Shown here piece by piece: positions 53,630-63,534 of a stretch of 64,000 nucleotides of DNA. The stretch is from Nitrospirota bacterium (GTDB lineage: Bacteria > Nitrospirota > Thermodesulfovibrionia > Thermodesulfovibrionales > Dissulfurispiraceae). The stretch covers positions 1 through 64,000 of the forward strand of contig JADFXU010000007.1 of the NCBI GenBank assembly GCA_015233365.1, written 5' to 3'. Made by a program: the position numbers and the translations under genes. Position 1 is the first letter of the stretch, and every line of letters begins with the position of its first letter. The notes under the pieces were generated by a model that saw only the letters and a list, made by a program, of their open reading frames with translations, was not told the origin of the DNA and searched no databases.

Positions 53630-56083
<2,454 letters not shown>

Positions 56084-56101: not shown

Positions 56102-56419
56102 GTGCAGCAAAAAGATCTTAAAATAGCTGAAAAGTTCAAGTCTCTGGTCGCGCAGAGGGTAAAAGTTCACGAAGTCAAAATCTTCGGTTCCCGCGCACGG
56201 GGCAATGCCACTGAAGAGTCGGACCTCGACGTTCTTATTGTAGTTGATCATCTTGATCATGCACTGGAAAAATTTATAAGCGAGTGCGCATGGGAAGCGG
56301 GGTTTCCCGAAGATGTTGTTGTCGTGCCGATCGCCATTAGCATCGATTCCATGAAAAGCAGCGCACTCCGTGAGTCAGTATTCATCAAGACGGTTTATAG
56401 AGAGGGAGTAGCAGTGTGA
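56102..56419 (+). CDS. MNT-type minimal nucleotidyltransferase (putative antitoxin)
   Basis: VKIFGSRARGNATEESDLDVLIVV: GSRARG...SDLDVLI motif. Confidence 0.9.
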   Translation: MQQKDLKIAEKFKSLVAQRVKVHEVKIFGSRARGNATEESDLDVLIVVDHLDHALEKFISECAWEAGFPEDVVVVPIAISIDSMKSSALRESVFIKTVYREGVAV

Positions 56420-56820
56420 ATGAAAAGATACTCGCGCTGATACAATACAGACTTCAACAATCCGACGACTCTATCAAAGAAGCAACAGTTCTTTTAAAAG
56501 AACGTATGAGCTATAGGGCAGTGATTAACCGTTTATATTACGCCATGTTTTATGCCGTGTTAGCCCTTTTACAGGAGAAGCAGATAGGCACTTCGAAACA
56601 CTCCGGAGCAATTTCTCTCTTCGACAAGGAATTTATCAAAGGCGGTATTTTTGATAAAGGCCTATCCATGACCCTGCATCGGGCCTTTGAACTCAGACAA
56701 AAAGGCGATTATATGGAACAGGCTGAGGTTACCAAAGAGGATGTGGACGAGATATTTCCAAAGGCCTTGGATTTTGTGAACAAGGCGAGAACATGCCTGC
56801 TCGGCACAGGCAATTCTTAG
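56416..56820 (+). CDS. HEPN-domain protein (putative toxin partner)
   Basis: [24 protein letters not shown]; overlaps the MNT gene by 4 nt. Confidence 0.88.
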
Positions 56821-56847: not shown

Positions 56848-56960
56848 AAGACTCGGTAAAGGCGGATGAAATGTTTACCGTGCTCATGGGCGACCAGGTA
56901 GAGCCGAGAAAGGATTTCACCACCAAGCACGCGCTTGAGGCGAGGAATATAGATATTTAA
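56848..56960 (+). repeat. Displaced duplicate of gyrB 3' end (copy 2)
   Basis: Encodes [37 protein letters not shown] in frame; 5 differences from gyrB. Confidence 0.93.
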
Positions 56961-57017: not shown

Positions 57018-57443
57018 CTATTTCTTACTTAGAATTCGAAAAATGCGGTTAACTTCCCTTTCCAAATTTGTTTGGCTCTGAATTGTACATTCCCATACGA
57101 CGATTACTGACCAGCCATTCCTTCGCAGTGCCTTGTCATTTCGTGTATCTCGGCGCTTATTATTGAGCAGTTTTGGCTCCCAGTATTCTTGTCTGCTGCG
57201 GGGAATATGTCCGTCGATGCAGTCATGTCCGTGCCAAAAACAACCCCTGACTTGAATTACTGTTCGGTAAATTGGCAGAACGATATCAGGTTTGCCAGGT
57301 AACGTATTCACATGAAGGCGAAACCGAAGACCTTGCCTGTGGAGGACTTTTCTCAGGGTTATCTCTGGTTTTGTATCCTTTGACCTAATGCGGCTCATTA
57401 CCTCTGAGCGTTTCTTATTTGTAAAAACATCAGGCATGCTCAA
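57018..57443 (-). CDS. vsr: Very short patch repair endonuclease
   Basis: MPDVFTNKKRSEVMSRIRSKDTKPEITLRKVLH...VRGCFWHGHDC. Confidence 0.95.
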   Translation of the reverse strand: MSMPDVFTNKKRSEVMSRIRSKDTKPEITLRKVLHRQGLRFRLHVNTLPGKPDIVLPIYRTVIQVRGCFWHGHDCIDGHIPRSRQEYWEPKLLNNKRRDTRNDKALRRNGWSVIVVWECTIQSQTNLEREVNRIFRILSKK

Positions 57444-58633
57444 TTTGCATCAAAGCGAATTCTTTTTTCTTCGGCCCATTGAGGATAGAGGTCTACTTGG
57501 TACCGTGCAGTCTTTAATAAAATAGCATTTTCTTCAACTAGAGACGACCACAGGTGTGGATCGGCATCGACTTCTTGGTCGATATCTCTGAATCGTTCTG
57601 TCTGATCAAGAATCCCCATGGCAAGGGATTGCTCGTTGATGTGTGGTTCGGGGTTCTTAAGAGATAAGCCACTTTTGTCGTTTATTGGCACATTAACCGG
57701 CGAGAAAAGAAAAGCCAAAGACAACATGTTTGGGAAAGAAACGGGCGTTTGGTTGTTTTCGACCCGGTACCAACAACTGTCAAGCATCTCAACAAGCCAG
57801 TTATTATTGGTGTCATAAAACAACTGTATGAGCCATTTGCCGAATCCAGCAGCGAATAGTTTTACGAATTCCCTGTCTCTACATCCCACAAGAACTTCAT
57901 CGACATTTACGCTTTCATTGTACCTGGTAAAATCCCAGTTCGACATTTCTACTAGTCGTTGACCAAACAACGAATTACTCTCAGAATTATTCTTAAGGCA
58001 TTTCAGATAGTGGGGAAGGTGAGCAACATTTACCTGCTCGTATTCTGCTCTTGTAGTAAGGAAAAGCAACCATTTTTCTCTACTATTATTTATTTGGTAT
58101 TCACAAAGATTATGCAACACCTGGTGGTTATCCGGGAAATTGATGCAAGAGATTGATCCGCAAAGATCCAAATTTACAATATCAAAGGGGCCGTGTCCAC
58201 GTATATAGTTGAATCCTTGGGAGTCGGTGCTTTTAAGCACCGATATATTGTCGGTAACTATGACAGAGCCAGGCTGGATGTTGTTGCTTATTTCGTTCCG
58301 GGAGATGTTTACCTCCGTCTGAGATGTGCGATCCCTCGCTTCTTCGTCAAAGCCGAGGCACTTTAGTTGCAGCCCTTTTTCGTTGCAAAGGTGTGCCAGA
58401 ACACGGATGTCAAGCATGTCTTCTCCTGGAAGGGAAAGGTATCGCAGAGACCGACCATCTAATCGAAGATGAGGAATTAGAGCCTTTATCTCTTTGAGCC
58501 ACTGATTGTTGCGAACCCACTGTTTCCTTGGTTTATGCCAAGGCTTGAACTCCCTCGCAGTAACAGGCGATTCATGTGAGATTTTTTTCGGAGCAATGCC
58601 TTCAATAAGGCCATTTTCTGGTTTATCAAACAT
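57440..58633 (-). CDS. Uncharacterised 397-aa protein with Rossmann/SAM-MTase-like N-terminal region
   Basis: RYLSLPGEDMLDIRVLAHLCNEKGLQLKCLGFDEEA ... GPFDIVNLDLCGSISC; stop overlaps vsr start. Confidence 0.75.
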   Translation of the reverse strand: MFDKPENGLIEGIAPKKISHESPVTAREFKPWHKPRKQWVRNNQWLKEIKALIPHLRLDGRSLRYLSLPGEDMLDIRVLAHLCNEKGLQLKCLGFDEEARDRTSQTEVNISRNEISNNIQPGSVIVTDNISVLKSTDSQGFNYIRGHGPFDIVNLDLCGSISCINFPDNHQVLHNLCEYQINNSREKWLLFLTTRAEYEQVNVAHLPHYLKCLKNNSESNSLFGQRLVEMSNWDFTRYNESVNVDEVLVGCRDREFVKLFAAGFGKWLIQLFYDTNNNWLVEMLDSCWYRVENNQTPVSFPNMLSLAFLFSPVNVPINDKSGLSLKNPEPHINEQSLAMGILDQTERFRDIDQEVDADPHLWSSLVEENAILLKTARYQVDLYPQWAEEKRIRFDAN

Positions 58634-58644
58634 GTTACCTCTGA

Positions 58645-60597
58645 TTATCGAGAGAAGATGGCAACAATGTCCTGTAATAAACGCTGCTGTTTATCATAGG
58701 GCATGTCATTAAAGACGCCATATGCGTCGAGGACTTTGGCGACGGCTTTAATTTGAGCCTCAAACTTTGTCTCTTCCAGTTTGTTATCTTTTGTTTTCCG
58801 TAATGTTTCATCCCTATCTTTAAATACAGTTGATTTCTGGAATGCTAAAATCCCATCTTTTCTAAGCTTCACTTGATTTTCATGATCGTCCGTGAATTCG
58901 ACTTTTGGCAGAGGAGTATCCTCATCTGGAATAATGGATCGCAAGGATTTATTAGTTTGCTGCTCCAATTCATCCAGTTCTTGTTGTGCTTTTTCTGTTT
59001 TTGTACTAACCCTGATTTCTTTAGCAAGCGATTTGTGACGGTTTGCGAGTTGACGGAAAGCGTTATGCACCCAATGAGTAATATATTGATAATGTGGATG
59101 CGAGAAGTTGAAGGATTCCCGGTCTATATTCAAAGCTGCGTCCAATCCCTTTGTCACAAATATCTCTGCTGTAACTTGATCCTTGCGTCGCTGTTCAGAC
59201 ACAGGATAGTGTAGAAAACTGTTATCGAAGAGTACCCCGTTTGAATCGTTAATGCGGATTAATACTCCTGCGTGTTCTTTAGGCACTACCGTGTGATTCC
59301 AGAAAAAATAGGCCTCAAATTCCAAATCACCGCCTCTCACCTCTGCTGGATATGCAGAGAGATCGGGGGCATCTTTACCCACGAAAAGGAGTGAGTAAGG
59401 GACTGACTCAAGGGTTTTGGGAAGATTTCGAAACCGAATTGGGCGAAATAACTGAACCCCATCAATGACAACACGAAAATCTGGTGTTTTCCCTCTTTCT
59501 GGCGATAATAATTCCAATTTATGACGTATACTTTCACCTGCGTCAAGATTCAATTCTTCTGCTTGATCTTTCTTCGTATTCCCTATAACGAATATCTTAA
59601 GGCCCGATTCCGAAATAAGTTCAAAAGGATGCCCATCAACGTAATCTACAGGTGCTGAAAGACTTAATATCCATAACATTCTCAAATAATAATCCAGATG
59701 ATCATAAATGCTTGGATTGCGGTCTGTCCGGCCACGAAGGTCGTACATTTTATCAATAAGTTTGCCGAAACGTTTTTCAGGACTATCGGATGCATCCCAT
59801 GGTAGGACGGCCCTTTGGGCAATTAAATGCGGGGGATCATTGTGAACACAGCCAATATGAAATGCTGGAGGGTTCGGAGGAGCTATGATTACATCCGTCA
59901 TTCCCTCTGTTGTCTCTGGATTGCATCTAACCCACATCTCCTTGCTTGTAAGATCGTCTTTTGTCTTGGGGAGAAGATTTCTCAACACCACTTCTGTGCC
60001 ATGGCTATCGATGTCTGTAGCTGTAACCTTCCATATTTTGACGGTGCCTGTTGTGTATTCTTGTTCCGGAGTATCTATGGAGTCTTCGGAGTAAGTATGC
60101 AGAATGACGTCAGCAATTGTACGATGATTGGCACCCTTTGTCTTGGTAATTATTTGGAACTCCTTAGTTAACTGGGATACTGAGAATAAGCCTATACCAA
60201 TTTTGCCAATTAATTTTCTCCCCCCTGGACTGCGGAATTTATCTGTTGTGCTACAAACACCCATGCCAGAACCGTCAGATGTTCTCTTTGAACTGCCTCC
60301 GATACTATGTATCAGGTAAGAAAGAGCCTCTGGCGTTAGACCATTTCCGTTATCGCGGACGATGATTTGTTCAAATCTAGGGGGATCTGTTTGGATCTCA
60401 ACTAAAGTAGCATCAGCATCATAGGCATTTGAAATGAGTTCTCGCAGTGCAGATGAAGGCTGGCGATAAATACCATCTGTGACACGGTTGAGGACTCGTT
60501 CTGAAGTTGCAAGCTTTCCCTCTACAACTTTGTTGTCAGAAGCATTGAGAATTTCTTGTGCAAATAGATGGATTTTATCACGGGTGTCTTGGTTCAT
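58645..60597 (-). CDS. GHKL (HSP90/MutL/MORC-like) ATPase
   Basis: ALRELISNAYDADATLVEI (N-box), VRDNGNGLTPE (DxGxG), IGKIGIGLFSVSQL (GxGxxS). Confidence 0.88.
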   Translation of the reverse strand: MNQDTRDKIHLFAQEILNASDNKVVEGKLATSERVLNRVTDGIYRQPSSALRELISNAYDADATLVEIQTDPPRFEQIIVRDNGNGLTPEALSYLIHSIGGSSKRTSDGSGMGVCSTTDKFRSPGGRKLIGKIGIGLFSVSQLTKEFQIITKTKGANHRTIADVILHTYSEDSIDTPEQEYTTGTVKIWKVTATDIDSHGTEVVLRNLLPKTKDDLTSKEMWVRCNPETTEGMTDVIIAPPNPPAFHIGCVHNDPPHLIAQRAVLPWDASDSPEKRFGKLIDKMYDLRGRTDRNPSIYDHLDYYLRMLWILSLSAPVDYVDGHPFELISESGLKIFVIGNTKKDQAEELNLDAGESIRHKLELLSPERGKTPDFRVVIDGVQLFRPIRFRNLPKTLESVPYSLLFVGKDAPDLSAYPAEVRGGDLEFEAYFFWNHTVVPKEHAGVLIRINDSNGVLFDNSFLHYPVSEQRRKDQVTAEIFVTKGLDAALNIDRESFNFSHPHYQYITHWVHNAFRQLANRHKSLAKEIRVSTKTEKAQQELDELEQQTNKSLRSIIPDEDTPLPKVEFTDDHENQVKLRKDGILAFQKSTVFKDRDETLRKTKDNKLEETKFEAQIKAVAKVLDAYGVFNDMPYDKQQRLLQDIVAIFSR

Positions 60598-60605
60598 AGT
60601 TTCTT

Positions 60606-60728
60606 CTATCTAACTAATTTGAGCAGCACACTAAGTGCAGCGCTCACCATTGGCGCTGGCACCGCATTGGTGACTTGGCCCATCTGATGTTGATCTGCAA
60701 CCATTTTTTTCCACTTTTTTGGTGATTG
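60606..60728 (-). pseudogene. C-terminal stump of a second C5-cytosine methyltransferase
   Basis: Minus strand reads SPKKWKKMVADQHQMGQVTNAVPAPMVSAALSVLLKLVR*; QVTNAVPAP resembles C5-MTase motif X. Stop is 8 nt before the GHKL ATPase start; an in-frame TAA lies just upstream. Confidence 0.6.
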
Positions 60729-60844
60729 ATTTTAGAACTCGTCAGGCAATTTTGTCTATAGCGATAGTCATGGGTAATGCGATCCGTTGCTGAGTTAGTA
60801 AATACGCGATCGGTAAACAGCTCCCCCATTCTCCATCCCTAAAA

Positions 60845-61939
60845 CTATATGACTAGGTCAAATGGCAGGTCAGATATGTCACGCAGCCTGTTTAAATCCT
60901 TCAGGACATTTAGCCAGTCAAGTTCTGTCATGCGACTTGATGTTTGTTTATTGGCAAATAATCCTTCATCTGTAGCTGCTTCATCGATAGTTGTCTTATC
61001 ATCTTCTGGCATTGATCCAATCCCATGAATAACCTGTTCAAGCTCAGGAAGGCACACGTGATACACACAATCTATGTCGACTCCCATTGCCAAAGACCTG
61101 ATTCTTGACGGCCTCGGCTCACCGACAACAACAACAAAATGTGGCGCTCTTCCGCGACGTTCCCTTGTTGAAAAAGCCCCTTCAGTACGGGCATTCTGTG
61201 CACGGTCGCTTCTAATAGTCCACTTCACGCTTATTATACCATGCAGCAAGTCAACATCTTCGGCTCCACTGTCCTGGAAAAGCACCGTATTGTTTGCAAC
61301 ACTCTTGTCTACTAGTGGAGACGCCTCATCGGTGCCTTTGCATAGACTGTTTGCAGCATCTTTACTTATTCTTTTTCTGGCCAGAAGCAAATCAGGCTTT
61401 ACGGAATACGACGCAAAATTAGCTCTTACTCTGTTTCTGACCCTAATATCATGAATAGCTTCTATGGCTATGTTCATATCTTTAAGATGACGATACTGAT
61501 CATATTCTTCAAGTAATTTTCCTCCTCTTTCAATTCTAAATGTGCCGGGTCTTAAAGGCAGCAAGTGTGCAATAAAGGTATCCTCTATGAAGAGTCTTAC
61601 CAGTTTTTCCAATTCCGTCCCGCATGACTGTCCTGAGAACGGTTTTTTTGCCGGCTGCCCTTTGATAGTAACAAGCATTTTTTTTGTTTCTTCGATGTTC
61701 TCAAGATCATTCCACCTCTTAACGCCTAGTGATTCAGCAAGAGCATCTGCAATGTGACATTTGCCGTCTGCATTTGATGGCCTCCAGTATCGGGTGTCAG
61801 AATCGTAAGCTCGAAAATAGAACGGGCGCACGCCTCTTTCCAAATCCGCCGTCCCATTCATTTTGAAAGCTGGGCGTCCAAAAATCATCTCACGGATAAA
61901 TTTTTCTCTGATTTCTCCAATCTTGCAGGAATGAGTCAT
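60845..61939 (-). CDS. Type II restriction endonuclease, NgoMIV-like
   Basis: VKPDLLLARKR ... LHGIISVKWTIRSDRAQNARTEG ... VVGEPRPSRIRSLAMG, PD...SxK active-site layout; start taken at MTHSCKIGE. Confidence 0.75.
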   Translation of the reverse strand: MTHSCKIGEIREKFIREMIFGRPAFKMNGTADLERGVRPFYFRAYDSDTRYWRPSNADGKCHIADALAESLGVKRWNDLENIEETKKMLVTIKGQPAKKPFSGQSCGTELEKLVRLFIEDTFIAHLLPLRPGTFRIERGGKLLEEYDQYRHLKDMNIAIEAIHDIRVRNRVRANFASYSVKPDLLLARKRISKDAANSLCKGTDEASPLVDKSVANNTVLFQDSGAEDVDLLHGIISVKWTIRSDRAQNARTEGAFSTRERRGRAPHFVVVVGEPRPSRIRSLAMGVDIDCVYHVCLPELEQVIHGIGSMPEDDKTTIDEAATDEGLFANKQTSSRMTELDWLNVLKDLNRLRDISDLPFDLVI

Positions 61940-61946
61940 CTTGTCT

Positions 61947-62906
61947 TTATGCAGCCGTCCTGCGCCTGCGTGCTCTCGCCGCTGCTTCAAATGCTGCAGC
62001 AAGAGAAGATGCAACTGCCTGCGCTACAGGTGGAGGGAAAGCGTTGCCGACTTGTCTATAAGCATTTGTTTTTTTGCCACAAAACTCCCATGCATCTGGG
62101 AAACCTTGCAGCCTGGCTACCATCCTGACTGTCAGCCGCGGCATGCCGACAAAGCCATCGGAAGGAGCACTATCTGCAATCCCACCGCCATCGACTCCAA
62201 GACTTGCCCACGCTTTCTTTGCCCGCGTCGGACCTAAGTCAGGGCCTCCATGCTTTTTAGATCCACCAACTATAGTAGGCGCAATATCGTTTGCGCGATT
62301 TGCCCACAAGGCTGCCCCACTCCATCGGTTTGCCGCCATTAAATCAAGAAGGGCATAACCGACTGTTTGTTGCTGCTCATCTTGTGGGATGGGCCAATTG
62401 AAATGCCTTGCTATACTGCGGGGCATAGCAACGAAAACAACACGCGGACGTAGTTGAGGCACACCAAAATCCGAAGCGTTAAGTAACCTCCAAGAAACGG
62501 AATAGCCCATTCCTTGTAGTTTTTTCATCACCCTTCCACGATAATCATCAAAAACAGTATCCAAAATTCCCCTGACATTTTCAAACATTATTGCACGTGG
62601 TCGAGCCGCATCAACAATATCAAGCCCAACATCGAAAAGATTTCGTTCATCAGCTTCCCCCAATTGTTTCCCTGCTTTCGAAAAGGGAGGGCACGGAAAT
62701 CCGCCTGCTAAGAGATCAACACCCCTCCATGCTGCTACGTCCTGCTCGGCTATATCACCCTGAATTATATTCCAGGACGGCCTGTTTGCTCTCAAGGTAT
62801 CACATGCATGTTTATCAATTTCGACAAGAGCAATGGGCGCGAAGCCTGCTGCATGCAGCCCGGCAGCCTGCCCCCCCGCTCCGGCACATAATTCAACGCA
62901 ATCCAT
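61947..62906 (-). CDS. DNA (cytosine-5-)-methyltransferase
   Basis: VELCAGAGGQAAGLHAAGF (I), GGFPCPPFSKAGKQ (IV), FENVRGIL (VI), YRQVGNAFPPPVAQAV (X); start taken at MDCVELCAG. Confidence 0.94.
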   Translation of the reverse strand: MDCVELCAGAGGQAAGLHAAGFAPIALVEIDKHACDTLRANRPSWNIIQGDIAEQDVAAWRGVDLLAGGFPCPPFSKAGKQLGEADERNLFDVGLDIVDAARPRAIMFENVRGILDTVFDDYRGRVMKKLQGMGYSVSWRLLNASDFGVPQLRPRVVFVAMPRSIARHFNWPIPQDEQQQTVGYALLDLMAANRWSGAALWANRANDIAPTIVGGSKKHGGPDLGPTRAKKAWASLGVDGGGIADSAPSDGFVGMPRLTVRMVARLQGFPDAWEFCGKKTNAYRQVGNAFPPPVAQAVASSLAAAFEAAARARRRRTAA

Positions 62907-63113
62907 AACGCCTCTCTGTATCCATAGAATTTTGGGAGCATCGGCACGTGCTATTTCATAAAACACGCTCCCGTACAACCTCGCTGCCAATGTAAAAGAT
63001 CACTACATTCGTTGCTCACGATTTGCTTACACTATTGGAATAGTTTAAACTATCTTATAATTAAAAAGCAATAACAATTAATAACAGCTAAAAACATCAA
63101 ATAATATTTTTAT

Positions 63114-63480: not shown

Positions 63481-63534
63481 AAATAGGGACAGCGACCATT
63501 TTTGTGTCACCAAAAATGGTCGCTGTCCCTATTT
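63481..63534. repeat. REP/MITE-like perfect hairpin, 23-bp arms
   Basis: aaatagggacagcgaccattttt-gtgtcacc-aaaaatggtcgctgtccctattt. Confidence 0.85.

Follow-up and report, generated by a model that had tools for sequence, protein, structure and literature searches.

A 26-codon remnant beside a MORC-like ATPase suggests replacement of a module's own C5-methyltransferase by a GCCGGC-type enzyme

The 64,000-nucleotide stretch of Nitrospirota DNA analysed here (the window) carries, directly upstream of a MORC-like GHKL ATPase gene, a 26-codon stump that, judging from comparison with related loci, is well supported as the relic of the original C5-methyltransferase of a conserved gene module. It is fairly probable that this module depends on methylation of GCCGGC and that an isospecific methyltransferase replaced the module's own, leaving the 26-residue stump.

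The operon and the methyltransferase stump

The operon consists of five full genes on one strand: M, R, the ATPase, X and vsr. Pfam matches identify M as a C5-methyltransferase, R as an NgoMIV endonuclease, the ATPase as HATPase_c_3 and vsr as Vsr, and there is no Pfam match for X. The features of this region, all on the minus strand, are the following.

57018..57443, minus strand: Vsr mismatch endonuclease (Pfam), overlapping the end of X
57440..58633, minus strand: X, PP_RS20740-family protein, 397 aa, intact, with a class I SAM-methyltransferase-like predicted fold
58645..60597, minus strand: GHKL ATPase, MORC/paraMORC-like, 650 aa, intact (Pfam, predicted fold, conserved columns)
60609..60686, minus strand: stump of 26 codons, motif X of the putative ancestral ATPase-linked C5-methyltransferase (tblastn, HMM, frameshift-aware alignment); stop codon at 60606-60608
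60606..60706, minus strand: possible 32-codon mini-ORF enclosing the stump, ATG near 60706, putative, from sequence; ends 8 nt before the ATPase start
60687..60844, minus strand: junction of 158 nt without detectable methyltransferase homology, holding the in-frame TAA at 60729-60731
60845..61939, minus strand: R, NgoMIV-type restriction endonuclease, 364 aa counted from an ATG immediately behind the M stop, complete to the C-terminus
61947..62990, minus strand: M, the present C5-methyltransferase, NgoMIV/NaeI-linked clade, all core motifs present

The GHKL ATPase and the adjacent PP_RS20740-family protein are thus both present on one strand, and the stump is all that is found of an adjacent ATPase-linked C5-methyltransferase. 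A single C5-methyltransferase was detected in the assembly that includes the window; as the completeness of the genome is 81%, a further methyltransferase, of the cognate (ATPase-linked) type, could be encoded elsewhere.

The minus strand at 60606-60728 reads NQSPKKWKKMVADQHQMGQVTNAVPAPMVSAALSVLLKLVR followed by a stop codon, with an in-frame TAA just upstream, and this stop is 8 nt from the ATPase ATG at 60597. The first-pass annotation, which had noted both the TAA and the spacing, took this 40-residue tail for motif X of a C5-methyltransferase with a lost body. For evaluating this claim, relatives were collected by the ATPase N-terminal domain alone, to avoid circularity, and 80 loci from many phyla were kept of the 432 candidates passing. 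The best tblastn matches of the tail are the last residues of the C5-methyltransferase directly upstream of the ATPase start in these loci, with L050 at the top (47%, E = 1.2e-6), followed by L051, L032, L017, L045 and L008. An HMM made from the C5-methyltransferase C-termini that adjoin the ATPase in the relatives, with the window left out of the build, was used to scan all six-frame segments of at least 20 aa in the window (n = 1808). The stump ranks second of the 1808 (22.2 bits, E = 1.3e-5), outranked only by the intact methyltransferase of the window, and the next non-methyltransferase segment scores 8.0 bits. Frameshift-aware alignment confines the homology to 26 residues (60609-60686), 16 of which are identical to those in L050, so that the motif X assignment stands, in narrower bounds. 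Neither KKWKKMVADQH, ahead of these residues, nor the DNA as far as the REase stop at 60845 resembles methyltransferases above the chance level (22 of 40 shuffles score equally), the remaining catalytic motifs are absent, and the frameshift-aware search yields no signal upstream of 60686. The stump is a remnant and not an enzyme. The string LPDEF before the TAA resembles the end of motif IX, a likeness that the frameshift-aware search did not support.

A chance resemblance to motif X is extremely improbable and is refuted at the level tested: the similarity covers only 26 residues, and the 40-residue tail has no match in Pfam, in PDB by phmmer, or in tblastn of plasmids and phages, but the independent HMM places it second in the entire window, and it lies at the exact position, on the strand and in the frame where the methyltransferase of the relatives ends. 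The stump might, alternatively, be retained for a function, either as a 32-codon leader peptide translated from the ATG near 60706 or for translational coupling to the ATPase. An open frame extends from this ATG to just before the ATPase start, the methyltransferase stop in the relatives is close to or overlaps the ATPase start, and motif X is well preserved. However, a recent deletion accounts for the preservation equally well, promoter-like matches at the stump are no more frequent than in shuffles, and there are no close relatives on which selection could be gauged; a retained function is, accordingly, quite improbable.

The ancestral module

Comparison of the relatives indicates that the conserved module consists of a C5-methyltransferase, a MORC-like GHKL ATPase, the PP_RS20740-family protein X and, sometimes, Vsr. 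X is also encoded in 77 of the 80 ATPase loci. In 35 of the 80, an intact in-line C5-methyltransferase immediately precedes the ATPase, often overlapping it by a few bases, and in 21 it is convergent, directly after X. The exact order dcm-ATPase-X-vsr, which had been postulated as the ancestral operon from the window alone, exists intact in L017, L023, L032 and L036, and operons with an intact dcm in front of the ATPase, as had been anticipated, were recovered. The ATPase tree places the window in a group with L038 and L008 (SH-aLRT 96), and the in-line methyltransferases of these two loci belong to the subtype closest to the stump (SGHRAPPAH ... QMEQVTNAVPPPLA). The tail and the ATPase are two independent lines of evidence that point to the same ancestral arrangement.

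The methyltransferase ORF in front of the ATPase in L083 (560-2221, from a WOR-3 MAG) has C-x6-C-x2-C-x5-C at its end, as in endonuclease III/MutY, and this is possibly a fused mismatch glycosylase that replaces Vsr.

The module resembles several known systems. In paraMORC neighbourhoods, a MORC/MutL-like GHKL ATPase is encoded in laterally mobile operons with C5-methyltransferases and Vsr (Iyer et al. 2008, PMC2292703), that is, the same ATPase fold in the same context as in the window. Many of these neighbourhoods include SFII helicases, whereas the 80 loci centre on X, and in the available part of that report, no description of methyltransferase decay or replacement was found. The HEF_HK / Response_reg_2 pair also adjoins C5-methyltransferases, with Vsr often downstream of the second protein (PMC8011034), and shares with the module the order of C5-methyltransferase, GHKL protein, second protein and, often, Vsr, but none of the ATPase or X relatives matches PF19191 or PF19192, so that identity with this pair was rejected. 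The BbrUII/HgiDII (SalI-like) enzymes with a GHKL domain (NF050001) share the N-terminal ATPase domain (85 bits, residues 35-213); the window ATPase is far below the family cut-off of 550, no similarity is reported over the remaining residues and, unlike these restriction enzymes, the window ATPase matches no nuclease-domain family.

The ATPase and X

Neither of the two core proteins of the module shows decay in the window. The ATPase deviates at 2 of 110 strongly conserved columns (the median of the relatives is 2) and X at 0 of 26 (median 1). The predicted model of the ATPase (pLDDT 90.7) matches MORC2, MORC3, topoisomerase VI-B and Hsp90 and contains the GHKL and transducer fold and the ATP-binding motifs that characterize paraMORC/MORC-like proteins. 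By analogy (PMC2292703), the ATPase is likely to act in a restriction-like response, as an ATP-driven engine that clamps or loops DNA; there is no obvious nuclease in the conserved module core.

X is a full-length member of NF047698 (PP_RS20740; 318.7 bits against a cut-off of 200), a family that all 72 relatives match as well, and its predicted model (pLDDT 91.7) has the class I SAM-methyltransferase fold. No function is assigned to this family, which is tied here to a C5-methyltransferase module; its founding Pseudomonas putida gene was encountered as a hypothetical protein in a study of furfural-tolerance evolution (PMC9630843). In the predicted model, at high confidence, the conserved N154, D156 and C158 lie near the catalytic position.

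The ATPase is rare, with 1 occurrence among 248 Streptomyces genomes and 1 among 298 genomes of the Roseovarius family; these two sets were searched for ATPase-bearing genomes that could provide an independent test, and there were too few. A single-sequence scan of viral contigs detected no ATPase.

The NgoMIV-type cassette

R aligns to NgoMIV (PDB 1FIU) with E = 2e-35 through to the natural C-terminus, is homologous over the catalytic core with SVKWTIRSDRAQN, and is adjacent to M, as in NgoMIV restriction-modification systems. On plasmids, NgoMIV-type M-R pairs stand alone, with M directly before R. The M of the window is 63-65% identical (~64%) to those of the plasmid cassettes and belongs to a 100/100-supported clade apart from all ATPase-linked methyltransferases. 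The stand-alone plasmid pairs and the separate M clade imply that the NgoMIV-type pair is a foreign cassette and that the system in the window is a chimera, as surmised in the first-pass annotation. What distinguishes the window from ordinary NgoMIV/NaeI type II systems is the location of the pair upstream of ATPase-X, where it would replace the module's own methyltransferase.

NgoMIV recognizes GCCGGC, and NgoMIV and NaeI represent different branches of PD-(D/E)xK enzymes (PMC4081073); NaeI recognizes GCCGGC as well (PMC7653180). The replacement Ms have both kinds of partners, an NgoMIV endonuclease in L096 and NaeI endonucleases in L093 and L089, and the TRD core APTIVGGSKKHGG.DLGPTRAK is common, with few changes, to all 16 clade members compared. 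Given these partners and the common TRD core, the clade is most simply interpreted as one of GCCGGC methyltransferases, and M and R of the window are predicted, from family membership, partner endonucleases and TRD conservation, to methylate and cleave GCCGGC.

HNH nucleases are encoded beside the NgoMIV-type methyltransferases that adjoin ATPase-X in L019 (5292-5768) and L058 (4391-5281), so that at least three types of endonuclease occur as partners of this methyltransferase clade.

Loss of the cognate methyltransferase across relatives

All 13 related genomes that were judged to lack the cognate M encode an M of the NgoMIV/NaeI-linked type. Five of these (L019, L020, L024, L053, L058) were noted partly because of a nearby NgoMIV-type M, and eight (L013, L026, L039, L047, L064, L067, L068, L082) were chosen blind to it, solely because an intact methyltransferase was not detected beside ATPase-X. 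In each of these eight genomes, the NgoMIV-type M is present and is unlinked to the ATPase. Two of the loci, L064 and L068, include less than 500 nt of the DNA upstream of the ATPase, too little to directly exclude an in-line methyltransferase; a genome-wide PF00145 search found no cognate-type methyltransferase in either. In several of the 13 genomes, the NgoMIV-type M is the sole C5-methyltransferase, and none of the other C5-methyltransferases fetched from the 13 is of the cognate type. Among genomes with a cognate M, none of 57 (0/49 + 0/8) carries an NgoMIV-type M. Seven further genomes with neither a GCCGGC-type nor a cognate M were considered ambiguous. L014, L070, L072 and L075 have another C5-methyltransferase in the locus and L009, L061 and L081 are on truncated contigs, with no GCCGGC-type M in any of these genomes.

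This association could be a by-product of lineage composition and clustering of genes in defence islands, in which case the stump would be a relic and the specificity of the replacement unconstrained. GCCGGC-type Ms are indeed common in Streptomyces (98 of 248 genomes at E 1e-50, and ~33 of 248, or ~13%, at 50% identity or higher, the class to which the Ms of the three Streptomyces genomes among the relatives belong) and are present in 30 of 298 genomes (10%) of the Roseovarius family. The losses, moreover, are clustered in the phylogeny, with about five independent events, roughly three of these with unlinked replacements. However, the signal, which for the eight against the 57 is 2e-10 in an unstratified Fisher test, survives stratification within Actinomycetota (6/6 vs 0/5, 0.002) and within Alphaproteobacteria (2/2 vs 0/16, 0.007), the replacements occurred in five separate lineages, and several genomes contain no other C5-methyltransferase. 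At the 13% background, about five independent losses correspond to a probability of 4e-5, and the three unlinked ones alone to ~0.002. The evidence is the excess among the losses; 0/57 on its own is not below the background. We regard the by-product explanation as unlikely.

Two additional lineages show the decay in progress. In Arthrobacter (L020, 6370-6942), the ATPase is preceded by a 190-aa, internally deleted C5-methyltransferase in which motif I is joined in frame to the TRD and motif X; L024 (6478-6942) carries a similar but more decayed relic, and in both loci a GCCGGC-type methyltransferase follows X. In Roseovarius lutimaris (L067, 7994-8191), a 65-aa C-terminal piece of a methyltransferase is located after X and is convergent with it, and an NaeI-type restriction-modification system is encoded elsewhere in the genome.

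Replacement or uncoupling

These observations can be accommodated by the following scenario. The stump is almost certainly the last 26 residues of the module's original C5-methyltransferase, and a self-contained NgoMIV-type M-R cassette would have inserted upstream of the ATPase, at that end of the operon, where it now takes the place of the old enzyme. The incoming M most likely marks m5C in GCCGGC, as the old M would have done, so that ATPase-X, putatively an ATP-driven DNA-looping or restriction effector dependent on the GCCGGC mark, would have kept the methylation that it reads as a signal or that restrains it. Loss of the old M would be tolerated because the incoming one most likely makes the same mark: on the economical reading that the module's own M also marks GCCGGC, an isospecific enzyme makes it redundant. 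The chances appear about equal for and against the broader proposition that the module reads one fixed word, GCCGGC, across phyla, with its own M interchangeable and free to decay given an isospecific M anywhere in the genome. If this is true, a gene remnant reveals the target of an uncharacterized defence system.

The first-pass annotation had arrived at a different inference, namely, that the system may be uncoupled from its original methylation signal. Under this explanation, the cognate M was destroyed, the specificity of the NgoMIV cassette is a different one, and ATPase-X-vsr is now a passenger or acts independently of methylation. The absence of the cognate M, the large phylogenetic distance between it and the present M, and the relatives in which ATPase-X is not adjoined by a methyltransferase all fit. 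Uncoupling, however, is at odds with the lack of decay in the ATPase and X, and does not predict a GCCGGC-type M in every relative judged to lack the cognate enzyme; it is probably wrong.

The data on the specificity of the cognate Ms are compatible with replacement by an isospecific enzyme. In the 39 main-type cognate Ms, the TRD is conserved at 0.48 vs 0.43 for the catalytic part, as would be expected if a single site is fixed, and there is no indication that specificity varies among them. Against this, the cognate Ms comprise subtypes that differ in their TRDs, and a compatible site would be required of them all. Our literature search found neither a published m5C site for any cognate methyltransferase nor a target site or a mechanism of action for this type of MORC-like ATPase module. 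In the RIMS-seq and MspJI tables, GCCGGC is given for Aeromonas hydrophila, and the motifs given elsewhere are different. The Xanthomonas enzyme XvDMT2 (538 aa) was considered as a cognate M and rejected, as it does not match the 377-aa Xanthomonas gene of the relatives. Isospecificity is derived from the association described above, which makes it about as likely as not, or likelier, that the old and the new enzyme share a GCCGGC site.

Should replacement be the correct explanation, the module would have a concrete, directly testable target, GCCGGC, and an unrelated restriction-modification system would be able to provide its methyltransferase in trans. More generally, the site of an uncharacterized module could then be deduced from whatever replaces its lost methyltransferase.

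Two features of the flanking DNA were observed in addition. The 3' end of gyrB forms a direct repeat of 112 nt (96%), at 55971-56082 and 56848-56959 of the window, on either side of an MNT/HEPN-like gene pair (56102-56820) next to the restriction-modification island, which suggests a mobile unit inserted at the gyrB end. A possible cassette boundary or regulatory site is located upstream of the M gene, at 63481-63534, where a perfect inverted repeat of 24 nt encloses a loop of 6 nt.
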